Shown here piece by piece: positions 10,352-37,231 of a stretch of 47,084 bases of DNA (positions within the stretch are counted from its first letter, which is position 1; each line of letters begins with the position of its first letter). Where the stretch lies: IMG/VR virus record IMGVR_UViG_3300036770_002448, positions 1 through 47,084 of that record, one strand, 5' to 3'. A program made the position numbers and the translations under genes. Below the pieces are notes generated by a model that saw nothing but the letters and a program-made list of their open reading frames with translations, had not been told where the DNA came from and ran no database searches. Source of the DNA: a virus.

Positions 10352-10713
10352 TTCTTGACAAGACCAAATCCTACGGCACGGTCATCGGCCATGCCGTCGC
10401 TCGCTACGAGCAGGACGGCAAGCTGTTCGACGTCACGGGCAATCTCATCGAGCAGGAGCCCCCGCCCGTCGCGACGATCGATCACGACATCATCGAGACG
10501 GATGGCGTGGACAATGCCAAGCGGTTTCTGCAGCATGTGCTCAGCGACAAGCCGCTGAGCAAGGCCGTGCTGTTCAAGATGTCGCAAGACAACAACCAGT
10601 CTTGGAACGACATCACCAAGGCGGCGGAGCTGATGCAGATCGAAAAGATCTCGTACAAGAACGCCACCATGTGGAAACTGCCGGAGAGCGCTCATCATGG
10701 TGTGGACGGCTGA
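10348..10713 (+). CDS. Hypothetical protein (121 aa), TTG start
   Basis: No family recognised. The start is inferred as TTG 10348, overlapping the previous stop (TTGA) with AAGAGGAGAG upstream; the frame is open further left but that part shadows the upstream gene. Residues include SYGTVIGHAVARYEQDGKLF and a helical C-terminus (VDNAKRFLQHVLSDKPLSKA, SWNDITKAAELMQIEKISY). It sits in the accessory block before a methyltransferase. Confidence 0.5.
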   Translation: MILDKTKSYGTVIGHAVARYEQDGKLFDVTGNLIEQEPPPVATIDHDIIETDGVDNAKRFLQHVLSDKPLSKAVLFKMSQDNNQSWNDITKAAELMQIEKISYKNATMWKLPESAHHGVDG

Positions 10714-11215
10714 CGCCCCGTACAAGCCGGAGTCCAAAAAGATCGTGTGGGAGGTTGCCCCCTACCTGCGCGGCAGAGGCCTGGACATCGGTGCAGGTGA
10801 CTTCAAGGTTCTGCCCCACGCGATCAGCGTGGACAATATGCACCACTCGAGGTTCGGCTTCTCAGTGCGCCCGGACGTCTTCTGCGACGCGGAGAAGCTG
10901 GACATGTTCGCCAGCCAGAGCATGGACTTCGTGTACTCCAGCCACACGCTGGAGCACATCGAGGACTACTTCTCTGCTCTGAAAGAGTGGTTCCGCGTCG
11001 TCAAGCAGGGCGGTTACATCATACTGTACCTGCCCGACGAGGACCAGTACCCCAAGGTGGGACAGCCGCACGCCAACCCCGACCACAAATGGGACGTCAA
11101 CTACAACAAGGTGGTTGACGCCATGAAGACCGTGGGCTCGTGGGATCTGGTGGACTTCCAGAAACGCAGCCAGGACGACGAGTACAGCTTGCTGTTCGTC
11201 TTCAAGAAGCTATGA
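10697..11215 (+). CDS. Class I SAM-dependent methyltransferase
   Basis: The 172-aa protein has a compact Rossmann methyltransferase: motif I GRGLDIGAGDFKVLP (SAM binding), an acidic strand end (AISVDNM), motif IV-like MDFVYSSHTLEHIEDYF and the post-motif KEWFRVVKQGGYIILYLPDE, close to the methyltransferase type-11 group. The substrate is unknown; group members act on small molecules, sugars or lipids. It is not a typical DNA methylase, as no DPPY/NPPY motif is seen. The association with the GT9 glycosyltransferase 440 bases downstream suggests sugar or LPS modification. The start overlaps the previous gene by 17 bases. Confidence 0.75.
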   Translation: MVWTADAPYKPESKKIVWEVAPYLRGRGLDIGAGDFKVLPHAISVDNMHHSRFGFSVRPDVFCDAEKLDMFASQSMDFVYSSHTLEHIEDYFSALKEWFRVVKQGGYIILYLPDEDQYPKVGQPHANPDHKWDVNYNKVVDAMKTVGSWDLVDFQKRSQDDEYSLLFVFKKL

Positions 11216-11383: not shown

Positions 11384-11665
11384 GTGTCCAAAGATCCGAG
11401 ACTTGAGCGAGCCGGCGTCTCTGGGTTCAACCAGCCCAAGCGCACGCCCAGCCACCCCACGAAGTCTCATGTGGTCGTGGCCAAGTCTGGAGAGCAGGTG
11501 AAGACCATTCGCTTCGGACAGCAGGGAGTGAGTGGGTCACCGAAGAAAGAGGGCGAGTCCGAGGCGTACCGCAACCGTCGCGAGTCGTTCAAGTCTCGAC
11601 ACGCCAAGAACATCTCCAAGGGCAAGATGTCAGCCGCCTACTGGGCGAACAAGGTGAAGTGGTGA
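11384..11665 (+). CDS. Conserved small basic phage protein (93 aa)
   Basis: Starts GTG 11384. Sequence stretches RAGVSGFNQPKRTPSHPTKS, VKTIRFGQQGVSGSPKKEGE, RRESFKSRHAKNISKGKMSA and a YWANKVKW end match a small basic protein I recognise from many phage genomes in structural operons. No function is established to my knowledge. The high Lys/Arg/Ser content suggests packaged-DNA or capsid-interior contact (inference). Confidence 0.6.
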   Translation: MSKDPRLERAGVSGFNQPKRTPSHPTKSHVVVAKSGEQVKTIRFGQQGVSGSPKKEGESEAYRNRRESFKSRHAKNISKGKMSAAYWANKVKW

Positions 11666-12726
11666 GCAGCAAATTCACGCATCGTTTCAGCTATCAGAAC
11701 CCCAAGCCGCAGAAGACTGCGTGCGTGGTGCGGTACGGCGCGTTCGGAGACTTGATGCAGGCCAGCAGCGTCTGGGCTGGGCTGAAGAAGCAAGGATATC
11801 ACGTCACGGTGTTCACCAGCCCGCCCGGGTCTGACGTCATCACCAACGACCCCAACATCGACAACCTTGTCCTCTTCGACAAGGACCAGGTTCCCAATGG
11901 CAATCTGTCAGACTTCTGGAACTGGCAGAAGAAAAAGTTCGACAAGTGGGTCAACCTCAGCGAGTCGGTGGAGGGGACGCTGCTGGCCATGTCCGGCCGC
12001 ATGCCCGCGCTGTACCCCCCGCAAGTGCGTCACGCGCTGATGAACCGCAACTACGTCGAGTTCCAGCACGCTATCGCAGAGATCTCCTACGAGTTCAATG
12101 CTCGCTTCTACCCCACGCAGGAAGAGGTGCGGTGGGCCAAGCGTGAGCGTGATAAGCTCGGCACCGGCCCGGTGGTAGTGTGGTCGCTGGCCGGCAGCAG
12201 CGTGCACAAGACCTGGGCGGGGCTCGACCACGCTATGGCGAGCATTCTGATCGAGTTCCCCACGGCACGCATTGTTCTCACGGGCGGGCACGACTGCGTA
12301 ATCTTGGAAGCCGGGTGGGAGAACGAGCCCCGCGTTCTCAGGCGCTCCGGCGTCTGGACCATCCGCGAGACGCTGAGTTTTGCCCAGCGGGCTGACCTTG
12401 TCATCGGGCCAGAGACTGGAGTGCTGAACGCGATGGCTTGCGAGCCGATGGCCAAGCTGGTATTCCTTTCCCACAGCACGCACGAGAACCTGACGCGTGA
12501 CTGGACCAACACGACCCCCCTCTGGAGCCAGAACACGCGCTGCGCTGGCCGTGGCGACAACGCGGCCCCTGCGTGCCACATGCTGCACTACGGATGGTCC
12601 AACTGCACTCGCGATGACGAGACGGGCACTGCTCAGTGCCAGAAAGACATCCACGTTGTGGATGTGTGGGCTGCCGTGTACAATGCTCTGAAGGTGGTGG
12701 TCGATTCTCGTAGAGAGGCGGCATAG
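11659..12726 (+). CDS. Glycosyltransferase family 9 (heptosyltransferase-like)
   Basis: The 355-aa protein resembles GT9 enzymes, which transfer heptose from ADP-heptose to LPS inner core. Domain 1 begins VVRYGAFGDLMQASSVWAGL (the ADP-heptose:LPS heptosyltransferase opening) and includes VTVFTSPPGSDV. Domain 2 has VWSLAGSSVHKTWAGLDH, ARIVLTGGHD and the donor-site region RADLVIGPETGVLNAMACE. The C-terminus has six Cys within ~45 residues. Start is GTG 11659 or 11662, overlapping the preceding stop. It is embedded in the tail-gene operon, so it is expressed late. It could modify host LPS or another acceptor; its natural partner would be the nucleotide-heptose pathway at 29524-31838. Confidence 0.72.
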   Translation: MVSSKFTHRFSYQNPKPQKTACVVRYGAFGDLMQASSVWAGLKKQGYHVTVFTSPPGSDVITNDPNIDNLVLFDKDQVPNGNLSDFWNWQKKKFDKWVNLSESVEGTLLAMSGRMPALYPPQVRHALMNRNYVEFQHAIAEISYEFNARFYPTQEEVRWAKRERDKLGTGPVVVWSLAGSSVHKTWAGLDHAMASILIEFPTARIVLTGGHDCVILEAGWENEPRVLRRSGVWTIRETLSFAQRADLVIGPETGVLNAMACEPMAKLVFLSHSTHENLTRDWTNTTPLWSQNTRCAGRGDNAAPACHMLHYGWSNCTRDDETGTAQCQKDIHVVDVWAAVYNALKVVVDSRREAA

Positions 12727-28475: not shown

Positions 28476-28901
28476 ATGGCTGCACCAATTCTCATGGGTC
28501 TGGCGCACGCGGGGGCAAGCTTCGCCGGGACGCTGGCGGGGGCCAAGCTCGCAGAGATGGCCGAGAAGCGACGGAAGAAGGCCGCCGCCCCGCCTCCTCC
28601 GCCCCCTCCTCCACCAGCGGCCAAGAAGGCTGAAGCTCCCGCCCCTGCTCCCGCCCCTGCTCCCGCCCCTGCTCCCGCCCCTGCTCCCGCCCCTGCTCCC
28701 AAGAGCGCCACTCGCAAGGCGTTCGAGAAAGAGTTCGCCGCCGCCCGCGAGCGTGGGGACGTTGTGTTCACCTTCCGCGGCAAAGAGTACAGCACTCGCC
28801 AAGCGGGCGAGAAGGGTCCATCACACCGCGAGAAGATGATGGACCGCGCTGCGTACCGTCAGATGGTGGAAAACATCGAGCGCAGCCGCAAGAAAGACTA
28901 G
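28476..28901 (+). CDS. Pro/Ala-stalk protein after the endolysin; spanin-like candidate
   Basis: The 141-aa protein has a mildly hydrophobic N-terminus (MAAPILMGLAHAGASFAGTL), a basic patch (EKRRKKAA), a run of nine prolines, then an Ala-Pro stalk encoded by 12-bp tandem repeats, and a basic helical C-terminus (REKMMDRAAYRQMVENIERS). A membrane-anchored Pro stalk spanning the periplasm recalls TonB or spanins, and its place after holin and endolysin is where spanins sit. No lipobox or clear strong TM helix is visible, so this is only a candidate. Its TAG stop shares CTAG with the opposing gene. Confidence 0.5.
   Translation: MAAPILMGLAHAGASFAGTLAGAKLAEMAEKRRKKAAAPPPPPPPPPAAKKAEAPAPAPAPAPAPAPAPAPAPAPKSATRKAFEKEFAAARERGDVVFTFRGKEYSTRQAGEKGPSHREKMMDRAAYRQMVENIERSRKKD
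28635..28700 (+). repeat. 12-bp tandem repeat, 5.5 copies
   Basis: The unit GCTCCCGCCCCT repeats exactly five times from 28635 to 28694, plus a half unit to 28700. It encodes the Ala-Pro stalk of the surrounding gene. Perfect identity suggests recent expansion or slippage, so stalk length may vary between relatives. Confidence 0.9.
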
Positions 28902-29509
28902 CGGTATACCAGAAATCCCAGACGCTCGCCGTCTGGGTCGGACACGAAGTTGGGGTGCGCCGTGCTCTGCCCCCACCACACTGGAATGAGCGTGGTGGCC
29001 GCATGCTTCTCGTAGTCTGGGCTGGCGCGTAGGTGCACTTCGATCACGCGGCCCCCGATGGTCTCATAGTTCACTGCGCCGTACTTCTCGGACAGTGACC
29101 TGAACAGCTTGGGCACTTCCCCCGCCGTGGGGAGAGGCAGCTTGTCCCAGCGCAGGAATCGCTGCGGCCCGCTGGAGAAGCCCTTGTAGACGCAGACTAC
29201 CCGCCCACCCCTTAGATCGATGGATAGGTGGTCGCCAGTGAAGAGCTCCATCCAGAACGTGCCGGGCTGCAGATGATCCGTGTCTACCGTTGGGAACTCA
29301 ACGATGCTGGCCCCCCGCCCCATCCCCAGCATGTTGGTGATCGGCTTGACCATATACCGGCCTGGGTGGGGTAGGTCAACCCCCGCGGGACCGCAGACAT
29401 GGCCAAAGTAGCGGGACAAGATTAGCTTATCATACACCCACAAATCCTCAACCTCCACGTTGGGCCACGCTGCATGGTCGTAGGCGGCGGGGGTGGCTTG
29501 TGTGGGCAT
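28898..29509 (-). CDS. ATP-grasp-like protein (203 aa), last gene of the heptose operon
   Basis: No named family is certain. The pattern VYDKLILSRYFGHVCGPAGV, GRYMVKPITNMLGMGRGASI, GTFWMELFTGDHLSIDL and GGRVIEVHLRASPDYEK resembles an ATP-grasp core: a Lys-containing strand with a Gly-rich loop, then a Glu/Asp pair and a terminal E-x-H/N strand. I recall similar proteins from aquatic phages. It lacks the N-terminal Rossmann part. It could be a ligase acting on a modified sugar or base. Start ATG 29509 has GAGAGG upstream. Its stop overlaps that of the rightward gene at CTAG. It lies 14 bp after gmhB. Confidence 0.45.
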   Translation of the reverse strand: MPTQATPAAYDHAAWPNVEVEDLWVYDKLILSRYFGHVCGPAGVDLPHPGRYMVKPITNMLGMGRGASIVEFPTVDTDHLQPGTFWMELFTGDHLSIDLRGGRVVCVYKGFSSGPQRFLRWDKLPLPTAGEVPKLFRSLSEKYGAVNYETIGGRVIEVHLRASPDYEKHAATTLIPVWWGQSTAHPNFVSDPDGERLGFLVYR

Positions 29510-29523
29510 AGGGCTACGGCCTC

Positions 29524-30033
29524 TCAAATGGGCGCAGGACGCGTTAGCGCCACATAGGCAGGGGGGTAGTGGCTTGGCTGGTAAAAATTGCGCCAGGAGC
29601 CGTCCTTTGGCACGCGGATGCGGCGCCCCACGCACTCCACCATGTCGGATTCCTTGTCTCCAAACATGATGCACTTGTCCAGGTCCAGATCAAGCTCTGC
29701 GGCGGCGCGGTAGAACAAACCGCAGCGCGGCTTGCGGCACGGGCACTTCATCTCCGGCGTGTGCGGGCAGAAGTAAGTCTTGTCGATGTTGACACCGTGC
29801 ACGGCCAGCAGCTCAGACAGTCTGTGCTGAACTTGGGCATACTGGTGCCGAGTCATCAGCCAGCGCCCGATACCGCTCTGGTTGGTGACGATGACCAGCT
29901 TGTACTCCTTGGCCATCAGATCTTTCAGCGCCTCTACGACGCCGTCCAGCAACACCACATCATCGGGGTTGCTGATGTACCCCACATCTTTGATGAGCGT
30001 ACCGTCTCGGTCAAGAAACGCTGCTACGTTCAC
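29524..30033 (-). CDS. gmhB: D-glycero-D-manno-heptose-1,7-bisphosphate 7-phosphatase
   Basis: HAD-superfamily phosphatase of 169 aa. Motif I is FLDRDGTLIK (nucleophile D8, acid/base D10), motif II VTNQSGIGR, a Lys/Arg-containing CRKPRCG, and the acidic motif FGDKESDM. A zinc-binding loop C89-P-H91...C97-P-C99 is diagnostic of the GmhB/histidinol-phosphatase group and distinguishes it from generic HADs. It removes the 7-phosphate from heptose-1,7-bisphosphate, the step between HldA and HldC. GTG 30033 is preceded by GAGGAG and overlaps hldC by 23 bp. Confidence 0.82.
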   Translation of the reverse strand: MNVAAFLDRDGTLIKDVGYISNPDDVVLLDGVVEALKDLMAKEYKLVIVTNQSGIGRWLMTRHQYAQVQHRLSELLAVHGVNIDKTYFCPHTPEMKCPCRKPRCGLFYRAAAELDLDLDKCIMFGDKESDMVECVGRRIRVPKDGSWRNFYQPSHYPPAYVALTRPAPI

Positions 30034-30433
30034 GGATACTCCTCACGATGTCGGTTGTACTGATATCCGGCAGGCGTGGCAACAGCGTGATGATTATACC
30101 TCGCTTGGTCAGCCACTGGCCCTCTTCAGAGTTCAGCACATCGCATGAAGTGTCCTTGACGTACAAGTCAGGGAACCTGCCGGATTCCTCCCACTTGCGC
30201 ACGGGGTTGGGCCCGTCAAACGGCACGACGCGGGACACGCAGCGCAGGGCGGACAGTATCTTCACCCGATGCTGCAGGGGCACGATGGGGCGGGTGCTGC
30301 CCTTCAGCGCCCGCACGCTCTCGTCGCTGTTGATGAACACCACGACGCTGCCGAACGTGGCAGCCTGCTCCAGAAACGTCACATGCCCCGCGTGCAGCAG
30401 ATCGAAGCACCCATTCGTCCACACGGTCTTCAC
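30011..30433 (-). CDS. hldC: D-glycero-beta-D-manno-heptose 1-phosphate nucleotidyltransferase
   Basis: A 140-aa cytidylyltransferase-fold protein matching the C-terminal (RfaE domain II) half of HldE. TVWTNGCFDLLHAGHVTFLE contains the HxGH nucleotide-binding motif at residues 14-17; INSDESVRALKGSTRPIVPL, RPIVPLQHRVKILSAL and the late ISTTDIVRSIRER (ISTT-like motif) agree. It would make ADP-heptose from heptose-1-phosphate and ATP; the nucleotide specificity cannot be proven here. In E. coli it is fused to the kinase; here the two are separate genes with gmhA between, as HldA/HldC in other proteobacteria. GTG 30433 overlaps the gmhA stop (GTGA) after GGAGAAG. Confidence 0.8.
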   Translation of the reverse strand: MKTVWTNGCFDLLHAGHVTFLEQAATFGSVVVFINSDESVRALKGSTRPIVPLQHRVKILSALRCVSRVVPFDGPNPVRKWEESGRFPDLYVKDTSCDVLNSEEGQWLTKRGIIITLLPRLPDISTTDIVRSIRERSSVS

Positions 30434-30999
30434 TTGTCTTCTCCGATCAGTGTCTCGTCCAGCATCTCGCAGATGGCGTGCGCGACGATCATGTGGCACT
30501 CTTGAATCCTGGCGGTCTCCTCGCCCCCCACGGCCACGGTGATGTGAGAGTACGCCCCCAGCGGGGATGGCTTGCTGCCCGTGAACGAGTAGACCGTGCC
30601 CCGCACTTCTTCACGCGCCCAGCGGGCGGCGCTCACCACGTTGGCGCTGCGCCCGCTCGTGCTGATGCACCACAGAATATCTTCCGGCTGCATCAGTGCT
30701 TGCACCTGCCGTGAGAAGACATGGTTGAAATCGTAGTCATTGCCCACGGCAGTGAGGATGGAGGTATCCACCGTGAGCGCGATGGCGGGGTATCCAACAC
30801 GCTCACGCTGGTAGCGCCCCACCAGCTCCGCGGCGATGTGCTGGCAGTCTGCTGCGCTGCCGCCATTCCCGCACAGCAGCACCTTCCCGCCGTTCAGCAG
30901 GCAGGCGGAGATGCCATTCACCATCTCTTCGATTCGTGGCTTCATGCTGCGGATCGTACCCAGCGCCTTCACATGACGGTCGAGTATGCCTTCAAGCAT
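30430..30999 (-). CDS. gmhA: Sedoheptulose-7-phosphate isomerase
   Basis: A 189-aa SIS-domain isomerase, close to the ~192 aa of E. coli GmhA. CGNGGSAADCQHIAAELVGR holds the substrate loop and zinc ligands H54 and E58. WCISTSGRSANVV is the second phosphosugar loop, and RIQECHMIVAHAICEM supplies Q166 and H174 with the family's spacing. It converts the host pentose-phosphate intermediate sedoheptulose-7-phosphate into D-glycero-D-manno-heptose-7-phosphate, the first committed step. Start ATG 30999 has AAGGAG nine bases upstream. It overlaps hldA by 31 bp. Confidence 0.88.
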   Translation of the reverse strand: MLEGILDRHVKALGTIRSMKPRIEEMVNGISACLLNGGKVLLCGNGGSAADCQHIAAELVGRYQRERVGYPAIALTVDTSILTAVGNDYDFNHVFSRQVQALMQPEDILWCISTSGRSANVVSAARWAREEVRGTVYSFTGSKPSPLGAYSHITVAVGGEETARIQECHMIVAHAICEMLDETLIGEDK

Positions 31000-31838
31000 T
31001 GGTCCAGCTCCTTGCGGGTAATGATAGCAGTGCCCAGCTTGGACACTGCGATAGCTCCGGCCGCGCTGCCCCACTGGGCGGCGGTGGAGAACGTTTCTCC
31101 CTCGCTCAGCGCGACGGCCATCGCGGCGAGGTAGCTGTCGCCCGCGCCGGTAGGGTCAACGCACTGGACTGGGATGGGTTTGATCTGCTCGTCCTCCAGC
31201 CCGAAGCCAGAGAACTTGGTAGACCCAGCGGCCCCCGCAGTCTGAATGATGTACTCCACATCCAGCTGGCGAGCCAGATGGCGCGGATTGCCGGTGACGG
31301 CCGTCACCTCGCTGTAGTTGCCCTTGATGACGTCTGCGTGGGCGTAGCGTTCCCAGTTGGTGCCCTTGGGGTCGACGATGGTGATTTTGTTGCGGGCGTG
31401 GGCAAGCATGTCCTTCACGTTGCGCAGAGCACCCTTGCCATAGTCGCTGAAGACGATAACGTCGAAGGCGTTGAACATGTCAAGGAACCGCTCCCCCACC
31501 AGATCGCTCTCGGCTTCTGTGAGGAAGTAGTCGTCATCGATGCGGGCCCGCATCACCCCGTCGACGAACACGCGCGTCTTAATGGTGGTCTGCGACACGG
31601 GGATGATGCTGGCAATCATCCCAGGTGGCAGATGGGATCCAGAGGCCAGACAGGTGAGCAGCGTCACGTCTCCCCCCATAGCCTGGACATTGGCCGCGAC
31701 GTTGGCCGCGCCACCGGGGTTCTTCCTCTGGGACAAGAGGTCGTAGATGACGATTGGTGCTTCTGGGCTGATGCGGCTAACCTCGCAGTTGAGCGAGATG
31801 TCGCGCATGCTGTCACCAACTACGAGTATCTTTCTCAT
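30969..31838 (-). CDS. hldA: D-glycero-beta-D-manno-heptose-7-phosphate kinase
   Basis: A 289-aa PfkB/ribokinase-family enzyme matching the RfaE domain I kinase. KILVVGDSMRDISLNCEVSR and SPEAPIVIYDLL are typical HldE openings, NPGGAANVAANVQAMGG is the substrate Gly-Gly region, and DPTGAGDSYLAAM carries the catalytic Asp (234) and anion hole. It phosphorylates heptose-7-phosphate at C1. The N-terminal extension is a little shorter than in bacterial HldE. Start ATG 31838 has AAGGAGAT upstream. Confidence 0.85.
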   Translation of the reverse strand: MRKILVVGDSMRDISLNCEVSRISPEAPIVIYDLLSQRKNPGGAANVAANVQAMGGDVTLLTCLASGSHLPPGMIASIIPVSQTTIKTRVFVDGVMRARIDDDYFLTEAESDLVGERFLDMFNAFDVIVFSDYGKGALRNVKDMLAHARNKITIVDPKGTNWERYAHADVIKGNYSEVTAVTGNPRHLARQLDVEYIIQTAGAAGSTKFSGFGLEDEQIKPIPVQCVDPTGAGDSYLAAMAVALSEGETFSTAAQWGSAAGAIAVSKLGTAIITRKELDQCLKAYSTVM

Positions 31839-32031
31839 ACACCAAATCTCCTTTGCTGTCCAGCCGCTGCACAGCCAGATGGTTTGCGATCGTGGGGTGG
31901 GCCAGCTTGGCAGCCTCGATCGCGTCTTTCCTGGAGCGTGCGTGCACCACTCCAATCTTTGATTCTCGAATGTGTACGCTCCCCTGTGGCGGCACATGTC
32001 GATACAGATAGAACACTTGATAGGGTTTCAT
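31813..32031 (-). CDS. Small hypothetical protein (72 aa) leading the heptose genes
   Basis: Unrecognised. MKPYQVFYLYRHVPPQG is followed by a segment with VVHARSRKDAIEAAKLAHP, a mixed alpha/beta pattern used in several small phage proteins that end with a domain of residues such as TIANHLAVQRLDSKG. It overlaps hldA by 26 bp, so it is coupled to it. The ribosome site is weak. It could be a leader that couples or regulates translation of the operon, but this is speculation. Confidence 0.5.
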   Translation of the reverse strand: MKPYQVFYLYRHVPPQGSVHIRESKIGVVHARSRKDAIEAAKLAHPTIANHLAVQRLDSKGDLVYEKDTRSW

Positions 32032-32118: not shown

Positions 32119-32559
32119 CTACCCCTGGTTCACGTACCCCTGGGGCTTGGCGCAGTCGTGAATGTCGTAGGCCTCCCCTGCCGACAAGGTGCGTACGGTC
32201 ACGCCACAGTGACGGCACTTGTAGTGATTGGTGTTGTCACCAAAGAAGCCCTCCAACTGCCAGTCCTCGTTGAAGTCCACGCGCAGGTCTGGTACTGGGG
32301 TATTCTGCACCACGGGGTCGGCCCGCGTGTCGTACTTGCGGGCAACCTCGATGTACTTCTCCAGGAAGTGCTTGGCCTTCTCCAGATCCTGCAGCCTCCG
32401 TGCATGCGTGTCGTGCTTGTCCTTCCACCGCATCACGTACTTGGTGATCTGGTATTGGAAAGGATCCCACTGGTAGTGCACGGCCAGATCCCAGTGCTGC
32501 ATGTTTTTGCCGATGGCGCGATAGTGGTCTCCCGCCACTTGCTTGTCGTTGGCGCTCAT
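32119..32559 (-). CDS. DUF3310 protein with C-terminal zinc motif
   Basis: The N-terminal ~75 residues match the DUF3310 pattern of small phage proteins: QVAGDHYRAIGKNMQHWDLA, DPFQYQITKYVMRWKDKHD and LQDLEKAKHFLEKYIEVARK. The C-terminal part has HYKCRHCGVTV and DIHDCAK, a likely Cys/His zinc site not part of the core domain. DUF3310 proteins occur in nucleotide-metabolism regions of phages; no function is established to my knowledge. ATG 32559 overlaps the previous stop (ATGA). Confidence 0.68.
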   Translation of the reverse strand: MSANDKQVAGDHYRAIGKNMQHWDLAVHYQWDPFQYQITKYVMRWKDKHDTHARRLQDLEKAKHFLEKYIEVARKYDTRADPVVQNTPVPDLRVDFNEDWQLEGFFGDNTNHYKCRHCGVTVRTLSAGEAYDIHDCAKPQGYVNQG

Positions 32560-32942
32560 TCGATGATCCTCCAGTCTTCTGACAGCATATCAGTCTGAGA
32601 TGCGAGCCACGGCACGCGGGCCCCCGGGGTGTTCTGCGCGTTGTCGGGATACGACATGAAGATGTACGGCAGCGTCATCTTGCTGTGCGCGTCGGGCACT
32701 TGCAGCTCCAGCCACAGACCCTTGCCGTTCCACCCCACCCGTTGGACCTTCAGGCCCTTCTTCAGCGCGTCGATAGCCAGCCCAAAGGTCATCCCATTGC
32801 ACGGGCGGTAGGCGGCTTCGAACGCTTTCTTGGGAGACCATGACGCATATCCATCCTCGTAGCGCACGAAGTAGCCCTGTCCCTTACCCTCCACGTTGGC
32901 TGGTTCTGCGCTGATGATCTTGGTTCCTATGTACTTCTTCAT
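32556..32942 (-). CDS. DUF2829 / Tad2-like protein (candidate anti-Thoeris)
   Basis: Residues 51-128 match DUF2829: MTFGLAIDALKKGLKVQRVG, WNGKGLWLEL, TLPYIFMSY and VPWLASQTDMLSEDW. Thoeris anti-defence protein 2 (Tad2) belongs to this domain family and works by sequestering the cyclic ADP-ribose-type signal of the Thoeris defence system. Residues 1-50 (KKYIGTKIISAEPANV, YEDGYASWSPKKAFEAAYRP) form an additional N-terminal domain often seen with this family. Whether this member binds such a signal cannot be read from the sequence. ATG 32942 overlaps the previous stop, with GGAGGAGG upstream. Confidence 0.7.
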   Translation of the reverse strand: MKKYIGTKIISAEPANVEGKGQGYFVRYEDGYASWSPKKAFEAAYRPCNGMTFGLAIDALKKGLKVQRVGWNGKGLWLELQVPDAHSKMTLPYIFMSYPDNAQNTPGARVPWLASQTDMLSEDWRIIE

Positions 32943-33319
32943 TCCCCCTCCTCCGCAAGACGGCTGCGCAGCTCGTAGCCCATCAGCGGCCAGATCTTGG
33001 TCACGGCGTTGGCCCGGGCGACCTTGCGGCCGATCTCTGGGTCGAAGTTCTCCGGGCTGGCACATGCCGACTCGCCCGTGACGGTGAAGCCGTTGCGCAG
33101 GGTCAACACGCAGAAGGTGAGCAGATGAAGAGGAGAGTCACCAACGACACCCGCGTCGTCGATGCTTTCGCCGTGCTCATCGATGCCGTTTCCGAGAACT
33201 CCTTGCGCGGCCGTGAAGTAGTGCTCGCCGACGATGTTCGCCTCGATGTCGGCCGGCGTGATGCGCGGGGCGGTCAGGCCCTTGGCCTGGATCTCTTGTT
33301 CGATGATGTCGTCAGTCAT
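32939..33319 (-). CDS. N4 gp49 / Sf6 gp66 family protein
   Basis: The 126-aa protein contains the family signature: IVGEHYFTAAQGV, then LLTFCVLTLRNGFTVTGESA, FDPEIGRKVARANAVTKIWP and the end LMGYELRSRLAEE. The family is widespread in phage accessory regions with no established biochemical role. Start ATG 33319 has AAGGAGGA upstream and overlaps the stop of the thymidylate synthase homologue (ATGA). Confidence 0.72.
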   Translation of the reverse strand: MTDDIIEQEIQAKGLTAPRITPADIEANIVGEHYFTAAQGVLGNGIDEHGESIDDAGVVGDSPLHLLTFCVLTLRNGFTVTGESACASPENFDPEIGRKVARANAVTKIWPLMGYELRSRLAEEGE

Positions 33320-34275
33320 TCCTTGGTCCTCCTTTGGCACCATTGAGCAAAGGCCGCACCCCAATCGCTGTTCGGGATGCTCAGCCAGTTCACCTTCCCC
33401 CCGTACTTACGGGCAAGATAGGCATCGCGTAGCTGCACCGCAACGTCACGCATGAAGTGCGTGCGCATGCTGGTGAGCCCGTCAACCAGGGCCACGCAGT
33501 CGTCGAGAAGGTACTCGTACTTCTCGTTGCCCTGCAGGATCGGGTGGGGGGATACCCCAGTCTCGTAGAGGTCTTGCGGCTCCGTGGGCGGGTTGTCCAG
33601 GAAGTCTCGCACCATCGGGTTGCTTGAGTAGGCGTGCCAGTTGTTGCTGAACTGCCTATACACCCCCACGGGCGCACCGACGGCGTGGGCAATCACCTCC
33701 TGCAGAATGCTGAAGTGCACCACGTTCGCACCGTAGCAGCCCCACAAGATGTCGTTGCTGCGGCAGCACACCGTCATGTTGAGCCGCCCGCCACGTAGGT
33801 CGAAGTAGATGTGCGTGTTGCACGGCCTGTCGCGCCACTCACCCGTCAGATCACTCTCAGGATCCCACATGCCGATCACGGCCTGCCGCGTGTCGGGGTT
33901 GCGGCGCAGCACATTGATGACCTCGTCCACCTGATCAATTGGCCAGTTGTTCCTCCATCGCCACCCATACGCCCCGTGCATGCGACCATCGGGCTCTGCG
34001 TAATTGGAGATGTTGGAGCTGAACTGCTTCAGCCATCCAACGTCTTGCTCTCCCGCCAGCATCCACAACGACTCCATGAGATGGAACACATGGTTCGCAT
34101 CTCGGCGGGCGTTGAACAGCACGCGCTGGCGGGGGTTGAGGTACGTGGTGAGCACCGGGCCGGGGGCCACCAGCACCTCTCCGTTCCGGCTGGTTGAGTG
34201 CTCCCCCGCGCTGCGGAGGTAGAACCACGCGTCTACGAACGCATGGTTCACGTTCTTTGCAGTGATGGAAAACAT
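33316..34275 (-). CDS. Thymidylate synthase homologue, probable dUMP/dNMP hydroxymethylase
   Basis: A 319-aa thymidylate-synthase-fold protein. PCNTHIYFDLRGGRLNMTV holds the catalytic Cys152; CCRSNDILWG has the phosphate-binding Arg and conserved Asp; YGANVVHFSILQEVIAHAVG has N184 where thymidylate synthase has the Asn that reads uracil, while T4 dCMP hydroxymethylase has Asp. This favours dUMP as substrate. The WGCYGAN block differs from the classic GLGVPFN, as in phage hydroxymethylase-type members. With the hypermodification genes just upstream, the likely product is hydroxymethyl-dUMP; ordinary dTMP synthesis is the alternative. ATG 34275 follows AGGAG and overlaps the MazG-like stop (TAATG). 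Confidence 0.78.
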   Translation of the reverse strand: MFSITAKNVNHAFVDAWFYLRSAGEHSTSRNGEVLVAPGPVLTTYLNPRQRVLFNARRDANHVFHLMESLWMLAGEQDVGWLKQFSSNISNYAEPDGRMHGAYGWRWRNNWPIDQVDEVINVLRRNPDTRQAVIGMWDPESDLTGEWRDRPCNTHIYFDLRGGRLNMTVCCRSNDILWGCYGANVVHFSILQEVIAHAVGAPVGVYRQFSNNWHAYSSNPMVRDFLDNPPTEPQDLYETGVSPHPILQGNEKYEYLLDDCVALVDGLTSMRTHFMRDVAVQLRDAYLARKYGGKVNWLSIPNSDWGAAFAQWCQRRTKE

Positions 34276-34658
34276 TACTTCGTTTCTCCTGTGATGAACA
34301 GCTCTCGGATCTTGGGCTCGGGCTTCCAGTAGCCAGGACCCTTCTGCACCTTGCCGTTGATGATGATGGCCCTGCCGTCCGGCCCCAGCTTGGACATGTT
34401 GCTGTCCATGATGATGGACAGCACTTTCTCGATGGGGATGCCGTGCCGGTAGGCCTCGCTGGTGCAGTAGACGATGATGTCTCCCAGCCAGTCTGCCAGA
34501 TCCGCAATGTCCAGGATTGCGTCTGCCTCTTGCATCTCCTCGTAGAGGATCTCCTTGAAGCGGCGGATGCGCTGGCGAGACTCAATCGCTGCTTCCGTGG
34601 GTTGCGGCAGGCCGAAGGCCGTCTGAAACTCACGAACGCGCTGAAAGAAATGGGTCAT
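34275..34658 (-). CDS. MazG-like nucleotide pyrophosphohydrolase (PRA-PH fold)
   Basis: The 127-aa all-alpha protein begins FFQRVREFQTAFGLPQP and has the metal-site pattern RRFKEILYEEMQEADAI (ExxE-type) followed by IADLADWLGDIIVYC (ExxD-type partner) and EKVLSIIMDSNMSKLGPDG, characteristic of all-alpha NTP pyrophosphatases. It hydrolyses a (d)NTP to the monophosphate. Next to a nucleotide hydroxymethylase, its plausible use is to remove a canonical dNTP or feed the monophosphate pool. GAGGAA precedes ATG 34658; it overlaps the next upstream gene by 29 bp. Confidence 0.75.
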   Translation of the reverse strand: MTHFFQRVREFQTAFGLPQPTEAAIESRQRIRRFKEILYEEMQEADAILDIADLADWLGDIIVYCTSEAYRHGIPIEKVLSIIMDSNMSKLGPDGRAIIINGKVQKGPGYWKPEPKIRELFITGETK

Positions 34659-35457
34659 ACTTGTTCCTCACATGTCCGTTGCTGTACTTCACTTTGCACC
34701 ACTTGCTGAACTCACACAAGCAGTTCTGGAAGTCCTGGTTGCTGATTCTGGGAATCTCCGGGTTGATGAATGGCTCGGTCACCTCTCTGCACTGGTCGAG
34801 CATCATCCAGTAGTTGGTGGCAGTCACGCCGTAGGGGGCGCGGAAGAAGAACCAGCTCAACCCCCGTAGACTGCCAGGGCCGGGGGCAGACCATGTCCAC
34901 CAGTCCGGGGCGTACTGCAGGGGATGGCCTTCTGTGTTCTTCATGTCCGCGATGATCTGGGCGGACAGAAAGCTGCCCAGCCCATCGATCTGCGACAGCC
35001 AGAAGTGCGCATCCTCCAGGCTCTTGAAGCTGGCTGATTGTAGCTGGGCCTTCTCCACGCGCTGCAGCACAAGGAGGATGTAGTCCAGCTTTACCATCTT
35101 CCTACCACAAGTGCTGATGGTGTACGCACTGGTGAACACCTTGGCCCCCGTGGCGGCTCGCTGCTTCAGCATCTCCACGGCACGCTCTGGCGTCCCTGCC
35201 AGGGTGATCTCTGCCAGACTGTCCGGCCAGTTGATCATCCTCGCGAGCACGAAACGCCACACCGGATCCGTAAAGTAGTTCCAGTTGGCGCGGATCCAGC
35301 GCGTGACGCGGTCATCCTCACGGTGCACGTTGCAGAAGCGCACGGTGTTGAAGATCTGATCACTGCTCCACGGGGGCGGCTGTCCAGACTCCTTGCGGAG
35401 CTTGATGGCGTGCCGCTCATTGATCCAGTAGCCGAGCTGATCTGACAGCCAGTCCAT
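34630..35457 (-). CDS. DNA base hypermodification protein (HMUDK helical / aGPT-PPlase-like)
   Basis: The 275-aa helical protein has the motif set of phage base-hypermodification proteins annotated as 5-hmdU kinase helical domain or alpha-glutamyl/putrescinyl thymine pyrophosphorylase clades: GYWINERHAIKLRKESGQPP, PWSSDQIFNTVRFCNV, REDDRVTRWIRANW, and a helix-hairpin-helix-like LSQIDGLGSFLSAQIIADM. Such enzymes act on hydroxymethyl-pyrimidines already in DNA, either activating or replacing the hydroxyl. No P-loop kinase domain is attached here. It sits between a TET-associated-type glycosyltransferase and a nucleotide hydroxymethylase. Start ATG 35457, preceded by GAAGAAGG, overlaps the glycosyltransferase by 41 bp. 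Confidence 0.68.
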   Translation of the reverse strand: MDWLSDQLGYWINERHAIKLRKESGQPPPWSSDQIFNTVRFCNVHREDDRVTRWIRANWNYFTDPVWRFVLARMINWPDSLAEITLAGTPERAVEMLKQRAATGAKVFTSAYTISTCGRKMVKLDYILLVLQRVEKAQLQSASFKSLEDAHFWLSQIDGLGSFLSAQIIADMKNTEGHPLQYAPDWWTWSAPGPGSLRGLSWFFFRAPYGVTATNYWMMLDQCREVTEPFINPEIPRISNQDFQNCLCEFSKWCKVKYSNGHVRNKYDPFLSARS

Positions 35458-36208
35458 GCTGCAACGCCTTCTTCCATTGGATGATGACATCGGTGCGCGT
35501 GGCACCGCCCCAGGCCGTCTTCGTGGTTTTCTCCACAGTCTTGACGAACTGCGGATAACGGCTCTGCAGCTTTTCAGCCGCTGCACGGTGCATCTCCAAC
35601 GTGCGGTACGTGGAAGCACCGCCAGCCGTACCGCTCCCCCGTTGGTTCTGGACGTACGAGTTGAGGATGCAGTTGGTGTACCCCCGCGTGAGCAGATGCA
35701 GCGTGGCTTCAAAGTCGTCCATCACTGTACTGTTGCGGAAGTCTACCCCCTCCTTGAAGAAGATACTGCGCTGGTAGCCGATGACGCGTGGGGCCCGTGT
35801 GCAGCTCAGCAAGCTATCAGTGTTCCTGTTGGCCCCCTCTCGCGTGGCGATGCCAACGTGTGCGTAGCCGCACAGAAGGACCTCCACCCCCTCCAGCATA
35901 CCCCGTATTTCTCCCGTGTTCGGCTCACGAAAGCGCGTGGGATCGTCCGTACGGCGCACCGCGAAGGTAAGATCATCATCCATCATGAGCACACGCTCTT
36001 CTGGCGCTTGCTCCATGATCCACTGCCGCGTGGCAGCGATGCCGGAGACGTCCTCCGGAGGTGTGATGATGCTGCTGTGTACTCCGTGATAATCTGCCAG
36101 CTCGTTTTGCGGAATAACGAGCGTTATGGGGTACGGCGACTCTTCTCGCAACTCGTTCAGTGTGTACTGAAGTCGTGGACGCCGCATTGTTGGGATGAAT
36201 ATGTGCAT
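35417..36208 (-). CDS. TET-associated-type glycosyltransferase (TAGT), DNA base modification
   Basis: A 263-aa GT-A-fold protein. The N-terminus MHIFIPTMRRPRLQYTLNEL, VTLVIP-like PITLVIPQNELADYHG, and DVSGIAATRQWIMEQ lead to MMDDDLTF, whose DDD at 77-79 is the metal/donor-binding motif. This order (IP-T-x-R, GIxxTRxWI, MDDD) matches phage glycosyltransferases described next to TET/JBP enzymes and other base-modification genes, which put sugar on hydroxymethyl-bases in DNA. The donor sugar is unknown; the phage's own nucleotide-heptose is a candidate. ATG 36208 follows AGGAG and a strong hairpin. Confidence 0.7.
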   Translation of the reverse strand: MHIFIPTMRRPRLQYTLNELREESPYPITLVIPQNELADYHGVHSSIITPPEDVSGIAATRQWIMEQAPEERVLMMDDDLTFAVRRTDDPTRFREPNTGEIRGMLEGVEVLLCGYAHVGIATREGANRNTDSLLSCTRAPRVIGYQRSIFFKEGVDFRNSTVMDDFEATLHLLTRGYTNCILNSYVQNQRGSGTAGGASTYRTLEMHRAAAEKLQSRYPQFVKTVEKTTKTAWGGATRTDVIIQWKKALQHGLAVRSARLLDQ

Positions 36209-36268: not shown

Positions 36269-37231
36269 TCAGTCGATGGTCTCTTCCACGACCTCGGCGT
36301 CCACCGGGTTGGCCTCCGGGGCGGGGGCCTCGGCCCGACGGGTCTTGCGCGGCTTCGTCTCCTTGGCCGGCTTCTCGGCCTTGGGTGCACGCTCCTTCTT
36401 CACCACCGCCTTGGGGTCGTACCCCTCGATGGAGATGAAGCCGTGCGCCGAGTCGTACGCCATGTCGGGGGAGGTGCCGCCGGCGTCGAGGAACTCCTTC
36501 TGGGTCATGCCCGTGCGGTACAGGGCGAACCGCTTCTCGGCCGCGCAGCCGGGACGCTTGGGGTTGTGGTCGACCAGCACGGTGATCTTGGCGTCCGGCG
36601 ACACGCCACGCAGACCACGCGGCGTGTTCGCTGCTCGGGTGGCGGTGGCGGCTCCGGTGGAGGCTTCGGTGGCTTGGGTCACTTCAGCAGCGGCTTGCGC
36701 CTCCATCTCGGGGGTGGCGCCTTCCTTCTTCTTGCGAGCCATGATGGCTGTTCCTTCCTCTATCCACGTGGGCGCGGGGCGGCGCGTCCACTTACTTTGC
36801 TCTACCTTCCGCCCCAGGTAGTATCTGCGATAGGCAATGATGCTATTGCCCGGAACCTTGAACTCGTCTGGCATAGCCTGCGGGGGCTCCGACCAGATGG
36901 GTGGCATTCCTGCCGTTTCTCCTATGCCAGCGGCGCGGTACAGCACATCTAGGCTCGCATGTACCCTGCCGCTGTATCTGTACGAGTACTCCTCCAGAAG
37001 TGCCTTGCCATGCTCGGCCAGCCACCTGAAGTTGTGAATTCCATCTCCTGCCCACAGAACGCTGGGGTGGCGGGGATGCGTGGGCCGGTACAGCTCTGGC
37101 TTCCACACTCCCCAGCGATCGCAAACTGTGCTGAGTATCTGCGCAGTTTCTAGGATCATCTTCACAACATGCTTGTCGTGAAGAGACTGCGCAGCTACCA
37201 CGGGATCATCATCAACGAAAAATACGTTCAC
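36269..37231 (-). CDS. Pyrimidine-dimer-glycosylase-like protein fused to a phage Lys/Ala-rich domain
   Basis: The N-terminal ~160 residues (VDDDPVVAAQSLHDKHVVKM, ILETAQILSTV, YRPTHPRHPSVLWAG, IIAYRRYYLGRKVEQSKW) match phage proteins related to pyrimidine dimer DNA glycosylase (endonuclease V-like), a repair enzyme for UV damage. The C-terminal ~157 residues from MARKKKEGATPEMEAQAA carry ITVLVDHNPKRPGCAAEKRF, ALYRTGMTQKEFLDAGG and a Pro/Lys/Glu tail, seen elsewhere as a stand-alone phage protein. An internal ATG (36742) with GGAAGGA upstream could start that second protein separately. GTG 37231 is the main start; a sigma70-like promoter lies just upstream. Confidence 0.6.
   Translation of the reverse strand: MNVFFVDDDPVVAAQSLHDKHVVKMILETAQILSTVCDRWGVWKPELYRPTHPRHPSVLWAGDGIHNFRWLAEHGKALLEEYSYRYSGRVHASLDVLYRAAGIGETAGMPPIWSEPPQAMPDEFKVPGNSIIAYRRYYLGRKVEQSKWTRRPAPTWIEEGTAIMARKKKEGATPEMEAQAAAEVTQATEASTGAATATRAANTPRGLRGVSPDAKITVLVDHNPKRPGCAAEKRFALYRTGMTQKEFLDAGGTSPDMAYDSAHGFISIEGYDPKAVVKKERAPKAEKPAKETKPRKTRRAEAPAPEANPVDAEVVEETID

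Follow-up and report, generated by a model that had tools for sequence, protein, structure and literature searches.

The metagenomic viral contig IMGVR_UViG_3300036770_002448 (IMG/VR; positions 1 to 47,084, hereafter the window) carries a compact operon, hldA-gmhA-hldC-gmhB, whose four predicted products are supported as a complete route from sedoheptulose 7-phosphate to a nucleotide-activated heptose, and we put at roughly 80% the probability that this heptose is the donor for some glycosyltransferase of the phage itself. The candidate that we favor as its main user, at a little under even odds, is a GT9-like protein encoded at 11659-12726 among the virion genes. A second candidate is a TAGT-family glycosyltransferase encoded in the same gene run as the operon, together with HMUDK_hel, a helical protein associated with hypermodification of 5-hydroxymethyldeoxyuridine (5-hmdU), and a thymidylate synthase (TS) homolog. 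The first-pass annotation of this DNA had described the heptose genes and overlooked both of these contexts.

The heptose operon

The operon comprises the following genes, with protein lengths in amino acids (aa):

30969-31838, minus strand: HldA-like D-glycero-beta-D-manno-heptose 7-phosphate kinase, PfkB family, 289 aa, ATG start (TIGR02198, 1.1e-52)
30430-31002, minus strand: GmhA-like sedoheptulose-7-phosphate isomerase, SIS family, 190 aa, conserved in relatives (TIGR00441, 1.1e-50)
30011-30433, minus strand: HldC-like heptose 1-phosphate nucleotidyltransferase, 140 aa, GTG start (TIGR02199, 7.7e-33; phrog_7878, 9e-22)
29524-30033, minus strand: GmhB-like heptose 1,7-bisphosphate 7-phosphatase, HAD family, 169 aa, GTG start (PRK08942, 1.3e-42)

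Among the open reading frames (ORFs) of the window these four form a leftward run with successive overlaps of 34, 4 and 23 nt, the 4-nt overlap between the hldC start and the gmhA stop being GTGA. The first-pass annotation had reported four adjacent, overlapping leftward genes in which gmhA splits the kinase from the nucleotidyltransferase, and both the positions and the order proved to be as claimed. Its reading of the set as a complete heptose route was likewise borne out, with family searches, solved-structure matches and conserved motifs all in agreement. The best solved structures were the D-beta-D-heptose 7-phosphate kinase 4e84 for HldA (2.3e-31), the phosphoheptose isomerase 5i01 for GmhA (2.9e-44), the putative cytidylyltransferase 5x9q, which we take to be HldC, for HldC (1e-18) and the E. 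coli GmhB 3l8e for GmhB (5.9e-25). When motifs were aligned to these solved enzymes, the catalytic residues that the annotation had pointed to were found to be kept in all four proteins: DPTGAGD in HldA, CGNGGSAADCQH and TARIQECH in GmhA, NGCFDLLHAGH in HldC, and DRDGT plus CPH...CPC in GmhB, where the zinc Cys/His residues also aligned. The GmhB match to the beta-type model PRK08942 was better than that to the alpha-anomer model NF050049 (1e-26). The profile searches that the annotation had proposed thus placed the four proteins in heptose-pathway families and not in unrelated sugar families; all four scored below the curated NCBIfam equivalog cut-offs, and we therefore regard them as divergent members of their families.

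Also as annotated, no HldD-type epimerase was found: PF01370 had no match in the window and seven related records, while the positive control matched in 14 of 14 genomes, so that none of these eight records carries the ADP-L,D-heptose pathway. The expected product is ADP-D-glycero-beta-D-manno-heptose, an assignment, including ADP as the nucleotide, that follows established pathway knowledge. GmhA would isomerise sedoheptulose 7-phosphate, HldA would phosphorylate the resulting heptose 7-phosphate at O-1, GmhB would remove the 7-phosphate, and HldC would add AMP to yield the ADP-sugar, which would then supply a phage-encoded glycosyltransferase. The same four reactions and homologous enzymes serve the Gram-negative pathway to ADP-L-glycero-beta-D-manno-heptose (GmhA, HldE or HldA plus HldC, GmhB and HldD), from which the phage version differs in its compact operon, the split of kinase and nucleotidyltransferase by gmhA, the lack of HldD and its divergent scores.

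The gene directly downstream of gmhB (28898-29506, minus strand) has its matches in phrog_3577 and in Synechococcus myophages, where the proteins are unnamed and the relative in S-T4 adjoins baseplate genes; none of the related heptose operons showed a counterpart.

A GT9-like protein in the virion cassette

Two genes of the structural cassette are relevant to the use of the heptose:

10697-11215, plus strand: S-adenosylmethionine methyltransferase (PF08241, 1.3e-11; 61% to the N-terminal part of a fusion protein in the related record G007)
11659-12726, plus strand: GT9-like (heptosyltransferase-family) glycosyltransferase (63.5% identity to the GT9-like part of the same G007 protein)

The GT9-like gene sits beside the genes for the major capsid protein (MCP) and head, and in relatives the methyltransferase and the GT9-like domain are fused. 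GT9 is the family of the ADP-heptosyltransferases of lipopolysaccharide (LPS), and Pfam describes PF01075 as heptosyltransferase. The protein was first missed in a PF01075 search of the window and was reached through a weak GT9 match in one relative; it has the motifs GAFGD and GPETG, two of six aligned members match PF01075, and the homolog in L104 passes the cut-off of that family. It is 78-80% identical in G001, G002, G004, G005 and G006, and it was found in every sufficiently long heptose-bearing record (the window, G001, G002, G004-G007, G066, G069, G071 and G072). G080 and G087 carry both the GT9-like and the heptose genes as well, but were found through the GT9-like protein. Among the TAGT/HMUDK phages without heptose genes it was missing from nearly all, with two exceptions (G014 and G033).

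In four of these records (G066, G069, G071 and G072) the heptose genes lie near terminase, portal or MCP, and neither HMUDK_hel nor a TS is present. The same location was seen in phages with a capsid of the window's type (MCP 65-74%; L104, L108, L109, L116 and L131), the tested members of which had no HMUDK_hel or TS. Since both are absent there, heptose appears to be used in these relatives without the 5-hydroxymethyluracil (hmU) DNA module, and a strict link between that module and the heptose genes was rejected on account of relatives with heptose genes near portal or MCP and no TS. The gene orders in these five phages and in L145 and L381 differ from that of the window, beside terminase, portal or MCP, and the ones tested again lacked TS and HMUDK_hel. 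The acceptor that we propose for the GT9-like protein is a protein of the virion, or some other late product, which would thereby receive D,D-heptose; TAGT could draw on the same sugar as well.

A DNA-modification module in the same gene run

Upstream of hldA, the leftward run includes a set of genes that resembles known DNA-hypermodification modules:

35417-36208, minus strand: TAGT, DNA hydroxymethylpyrimidine glycosyltransferase family (PF20691, 2.9e-17; phrog_842, 6.7e-45)
34630-35457, minus strand: HMUDK_hel / aGPT-Pplase1, 5-hmdU-hypermodification-associated helical protein (PF18723, 2.4e-38)
34275-34658, minus strand: MazG-like nucleotide pyrophosphohydrolase (phrog_671, 2.4e-21)
33316-34275, minus strand: TS homolog, probable dUMP hydroxymethylase (PF00303, 1.2e-22; phrog_5131, 2e-95)
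32119-32559, minus strand: DUF3310-like small protein, which most related modules have at this position (phrog_5839, 1.6e-18)
31813-32031, minus strand: small ORF preceding hldA, kept in related operons (42-48% identity in L003, L006 and L022)

The TAGT match exceeds the Pfam cut-off for PF20691, phrog_842 is annotated as 'beta-glucosyl-HMC-alpha-glucosyltransferase', and the structural model has a GT-A fold with a predicted local distance difference test (pLDDT) score of 95 and an invariant DDD; from its family assignment, the predicted role is sugar transfer to hydroxymethylpyrimidine DNA. For the TS homolog, the best PDB match was CMP 5-hydroxymethylase (1.1e-17), the catalytic Cys is kept, and Asn stands at the position of E. 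coli TS N177, as in dUMP enzymes. The residue at this position decides between dUMP and dCMP (PMC8670742), and because it is Asn and not Asp, the product is likely 5-hydroxymethyl-dUMP, although the same residue would also fit plain methylation. For HMUDK_hel, a homolog was identified in ORF055 of Pseudomonas phage M6 (31% identity) and the model reached a pLDDT of 94; nothing significant came out of a fold search, where the weak hits resembled DNA glycosylases. The window thus contains both HMUDK_hel and the TS-family enzyme of a 5-hmdU hypermodification module, and the slot upstream of HMUDK_hel holds TAGT and not a P-loop 5-hmdU DNA kinase (PF18748, searched in that slot alone). The DUF3310 name was taken from reading the sequence and from the annotation of RHph_TM26. 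Also within this run is a Tad2-like protein (32556-32942, minus strand; PF11195, 1.6e-21; Thoeris anti-defence 2-like), which had no match in the related heptose-operon loci, and adjoining TAGT is a gene (36269-37231, minus strand) with an N-terminal pyrimidine-dimer DNA glycosylase-like domain (PF03013, 1.8e-5).

Conservation of the arrangement

IMG/VR was scanned with GmhA, TAGT, HldC, HldA and HMUDK_hel queries and then with local profiles. The search for the same gene order in other phages, which had also been proposed at the outset, found the four heptose genes identically ordered in eight other viral contigs, within the order glycosyltransferase, HMUDK_hel, TS, DUF3310, HldA, GmhA, HldC, GmhB (L003, L004, L005, L006, L022, L023, L106 and the 63-kb G080, which came up later through an unrelated query). 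Two near-duplicate pairs reduce these nine contigs to seven distinct operons. Identities to the window's four-gene set fall to 32-37% (32% for HldA of L106), from which we infer that the arrangement is old, and the survival of this gene set, its order included, in eight divergent contigs shows that the pathway is maintained. The compact operon occurred in 8 of 122 distinct HldA/HldC-bearing loci, and six of the eight adjoin HMUDK_hel and TS, an association absent from the remaining 114 loci (Fisher p = 7e-9, with no correction for relatedness or query bias); the other two are L024, where the contig end cuts inside hldA, and L131. No near DNA match to the module was found in the phage collection.

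HMUDK_hel was accompanied by TS in all 76 of the HMUDK_hel loci scanned. Among 71 distinct loci, the slot upstream of it held TAGT in 52 and a P-loop kinase in 11, the latter never with TAGT or heptose genes; one slot kinase matches PF18748, '5-hmdU DNA kinase', below the cut-off, and the copy in phage Sonora does so at 2e-15. Other putative glycosyltransferases fill the slot in some of the rest. One of these is conserved in L005 (5880-6800) and L380 (10621-11502), 51% identical and in both cases with heptose genes, and the L005 type recurs in G080, with heptose genes, and in L254, without them. The L005 copy had no Pfam, PHROG, NCBIfam or credible PDB match, and by our reading it is GT-B in character. 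HMUDK_hel therefore looks like the fixed element, with which different chemistries on hydroxymethyluracil DNA can be combined. The window's TAGT is 67% identical to that of L106 and 41-44% identical to the TAGTs of phages whose replication genes are closer, and this disagreement suggests that TAGT was exchanged while the heptose operon stayed. A single heptose-linked TAGT clade was considered and rejected, as the tree places these TAGTs in two clades among non-heptose ones. The bacterial relatives of HMUDK_hel gave no host assignment: they are scattered, mostly in metagenome bins, with no heptose genes nearby.

Variations on the module were seen elsewhere. At L187 (12320-14210) a TAGT-HMUDK_hel-MazG-TS-DUF3310 module keeps just a GmhB-like gene, preceded by a 224-aa ORF that matches no known family. 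Sugar-nucleotide epimerase-type short-chain dehydrogenase/reductase genes adjoin the HMUDK_hel module in L223, L228, L246 and L247, which suggests other phage-made sugar donors, and in L189, L226 and L240 a FkbM-like methyltransferase, so named by reading, adjoins TAGT.

Relation to known systems

M6 DNA carries hypermodified thymidine, and the window shares with M6 an adjacent HMUDK_hel and TS homolog in the same order; the glycosyltransferase of the window stands where a P-loop 5-hmdU kinase is found in M6-type phages and at 11 IMG/VR loci. Pyle et al. 2024 (Cell Rep 43:114631), on phage glycosyltransferases that hypermodify 5-hydroxymethylcytosine (5hmC) with diverse glycans, reportedly described heptose put on 5hmC with the sugar drawn from the E. 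coli metabolite pool and the 5hmC said to derive from a methyltransferase/TET route, as opposed to the phage donor pathway and TS-type module here. Caulobacter phage Cr30 (L259) likewise groups heptose genes with a glycosyltransferase: it has a phosphoheptose isomerase and a kinase annotated as acting on heptose, but the kinase is of the GHMP family, and no HldC or TAGT module was seen in the Cr30 stretch read. The Cr30 protein annotated as glycosyltransferase family 2 matches Glycos_transf_1, and the set resembles a GDP-heptose route.

In RB69/NP-type T4-like phages, the genes for DNA arabinosyltransferases are clustered with genes predicted to encode an isomerase, a kinase, an NTP-transferase and an epimerase (PMC13390438). 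The likeness to the window lies in phage nucleotide-sugar genes near glycosyltransferases and a TS-family enzyme (PMC13390438); the window differs in its enzymes for a seven-carbon sugar, its uracil-type TS in place of a 5-hydroxy-dCMP synthase and its TAGT/HMUDK_hel module, and in having DNA as a possible acceptor of the sugar. In T2/T6, TAGT adds a second glucose to glycosylated 5hmC, and solitary TAGTs without an assigned role occur in 288 of 753 phage genomes (PMC13216743). There too the homologous transferase adjoins a TS-family hydroxymethylase, but in the window no alpha-GT or beta-GT partner was found, the acceptor is probably 5-hydroxymethyluracil, and heptose donor genes stand in place of host UDP-glucose. 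No phage ADP-heptose operon beside an hmU/TAGT module was found in the papers on heptose and phage DNA that could be searched.

Candidate uses of the heptose

Several observations weigh against the GT9-like protein as the main user. Its window copy gave no PF01075 match and the GT9-like profile no credible PDB match; with the methyltransferase it belongs to the core of a widespread virion cassette with 275 GT9-like relatives, and because GmhA is absent from 19 of 21 GT9-like-bearing contigs above 24 kb, its co-occurrence with the heptose genes may reflect lineage alone. It also lies ~17 kb from the heptose genes on the opposite strand, and it is TAGT that shares their gene run. Heptose might instead be destined for DNA, a possibility that we hold tentatively and rate well below even: TS would make 5-hydroxymethyl-dUMP, a polymerase would incorporate it, HMUDK_hel would present the base, and TAGT, or the glycosyltransferase swapped into its slot, would move the sugar from phage-made ADP-heptose onto the hydroxymethyl group, so that the genome would be protected from restriction. 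The gene order shared by the window and eight contigs, the constant pairing of HMUDK_hel with TS, the glycosyltransferases and kinases that fill its slot and the dUMP-type Asn177 all agree with this, as do the heptose on 5hmC that Pyle et al. 2024 reportedly described, the glucosylation of glycosylated 5hmC by TAGT with the many solitary TAGTs (PMC13216743) and the arabinose clusters of RB69/NP-type phages (PMC13390438). Set against it, 68 of 76 TAGT-HMUDK_hel-TS loci have no heptose genes, the heptose-linked TAGTs split over two clades, heptose genes occur in related phages that lack both TS and HMUDK_hel, the known TAGT donor is UDP-glucose, and common descent, to which the related replication genes of these phages point, may be what keeps the order. 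The full claim, that the phage heptosylates 5-hydroxymethyluracil in its own genome by an entirely virus-encoded route from pentose-phosphate intermediate to base, is a shade more doubtful still. The virion route through the GT9-like protein and the DNA route through TAGT are not separable computationally, and both could hold.

The remaining explanations dispense with a phage acceptor or with heptose itself. ADP-heptose normally feeds LPS core synthesis and the GT9-like protein belongs to the LPS heptosyltransferase family, so the phage might raise or modify the heptose of the inner core, and in this way affect adsorption or keep rival phages out; we consider this unlikely, given that HldD is lacking in 8 of 8 records, that the GT9-like gene belongs to the structural cassette while the heptose genes belong to a replication and nucleotide-metabolism run, and that no integrase or lysogeny gene was noticed among the annotated ORFs, which are part of all ORFs. 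A little less likely is that the substrate is a sugar phosphate of another kind, from which the four proteins make a different nucleotide sugar: their sub-equivalog scores and the versatility of the PfkB, SIS, nucleotidyltransferase and HAD families would allow it, but each of the four independently matches the heptose pathway best in libraries of families or structures, and the full set is present. ADP-heptose is an innate-immune signal in animals, and a decoy or signalling role, there or in host defence, which ADP-heptose might trigger or inhibit, is suggested by that known biology and nothing else; adjacent and co-occurring glycosyltransferases account for the pathway, the window shows no sign of an animal-associated host, and we regard this role as very improbable.

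Phage nucleotide-sugar pathways for glycosylation are already known, the arabinose cluster of RB69/NP being one example, and the heptose version is a variant of these. If the heptose goes on DNA, it would constitute a new DNA base with a virus-encoded donor pathway and would give a reason for the many solitary TAGT enzymes; if it goes on the virion through the GT9-like protein, a widespread phage lineage would glycosylate its particle with an LPS-type sugar. By either route the phage would be freed from the host heptose supply, and the nine contigs with the same operon provide a concrete test set.

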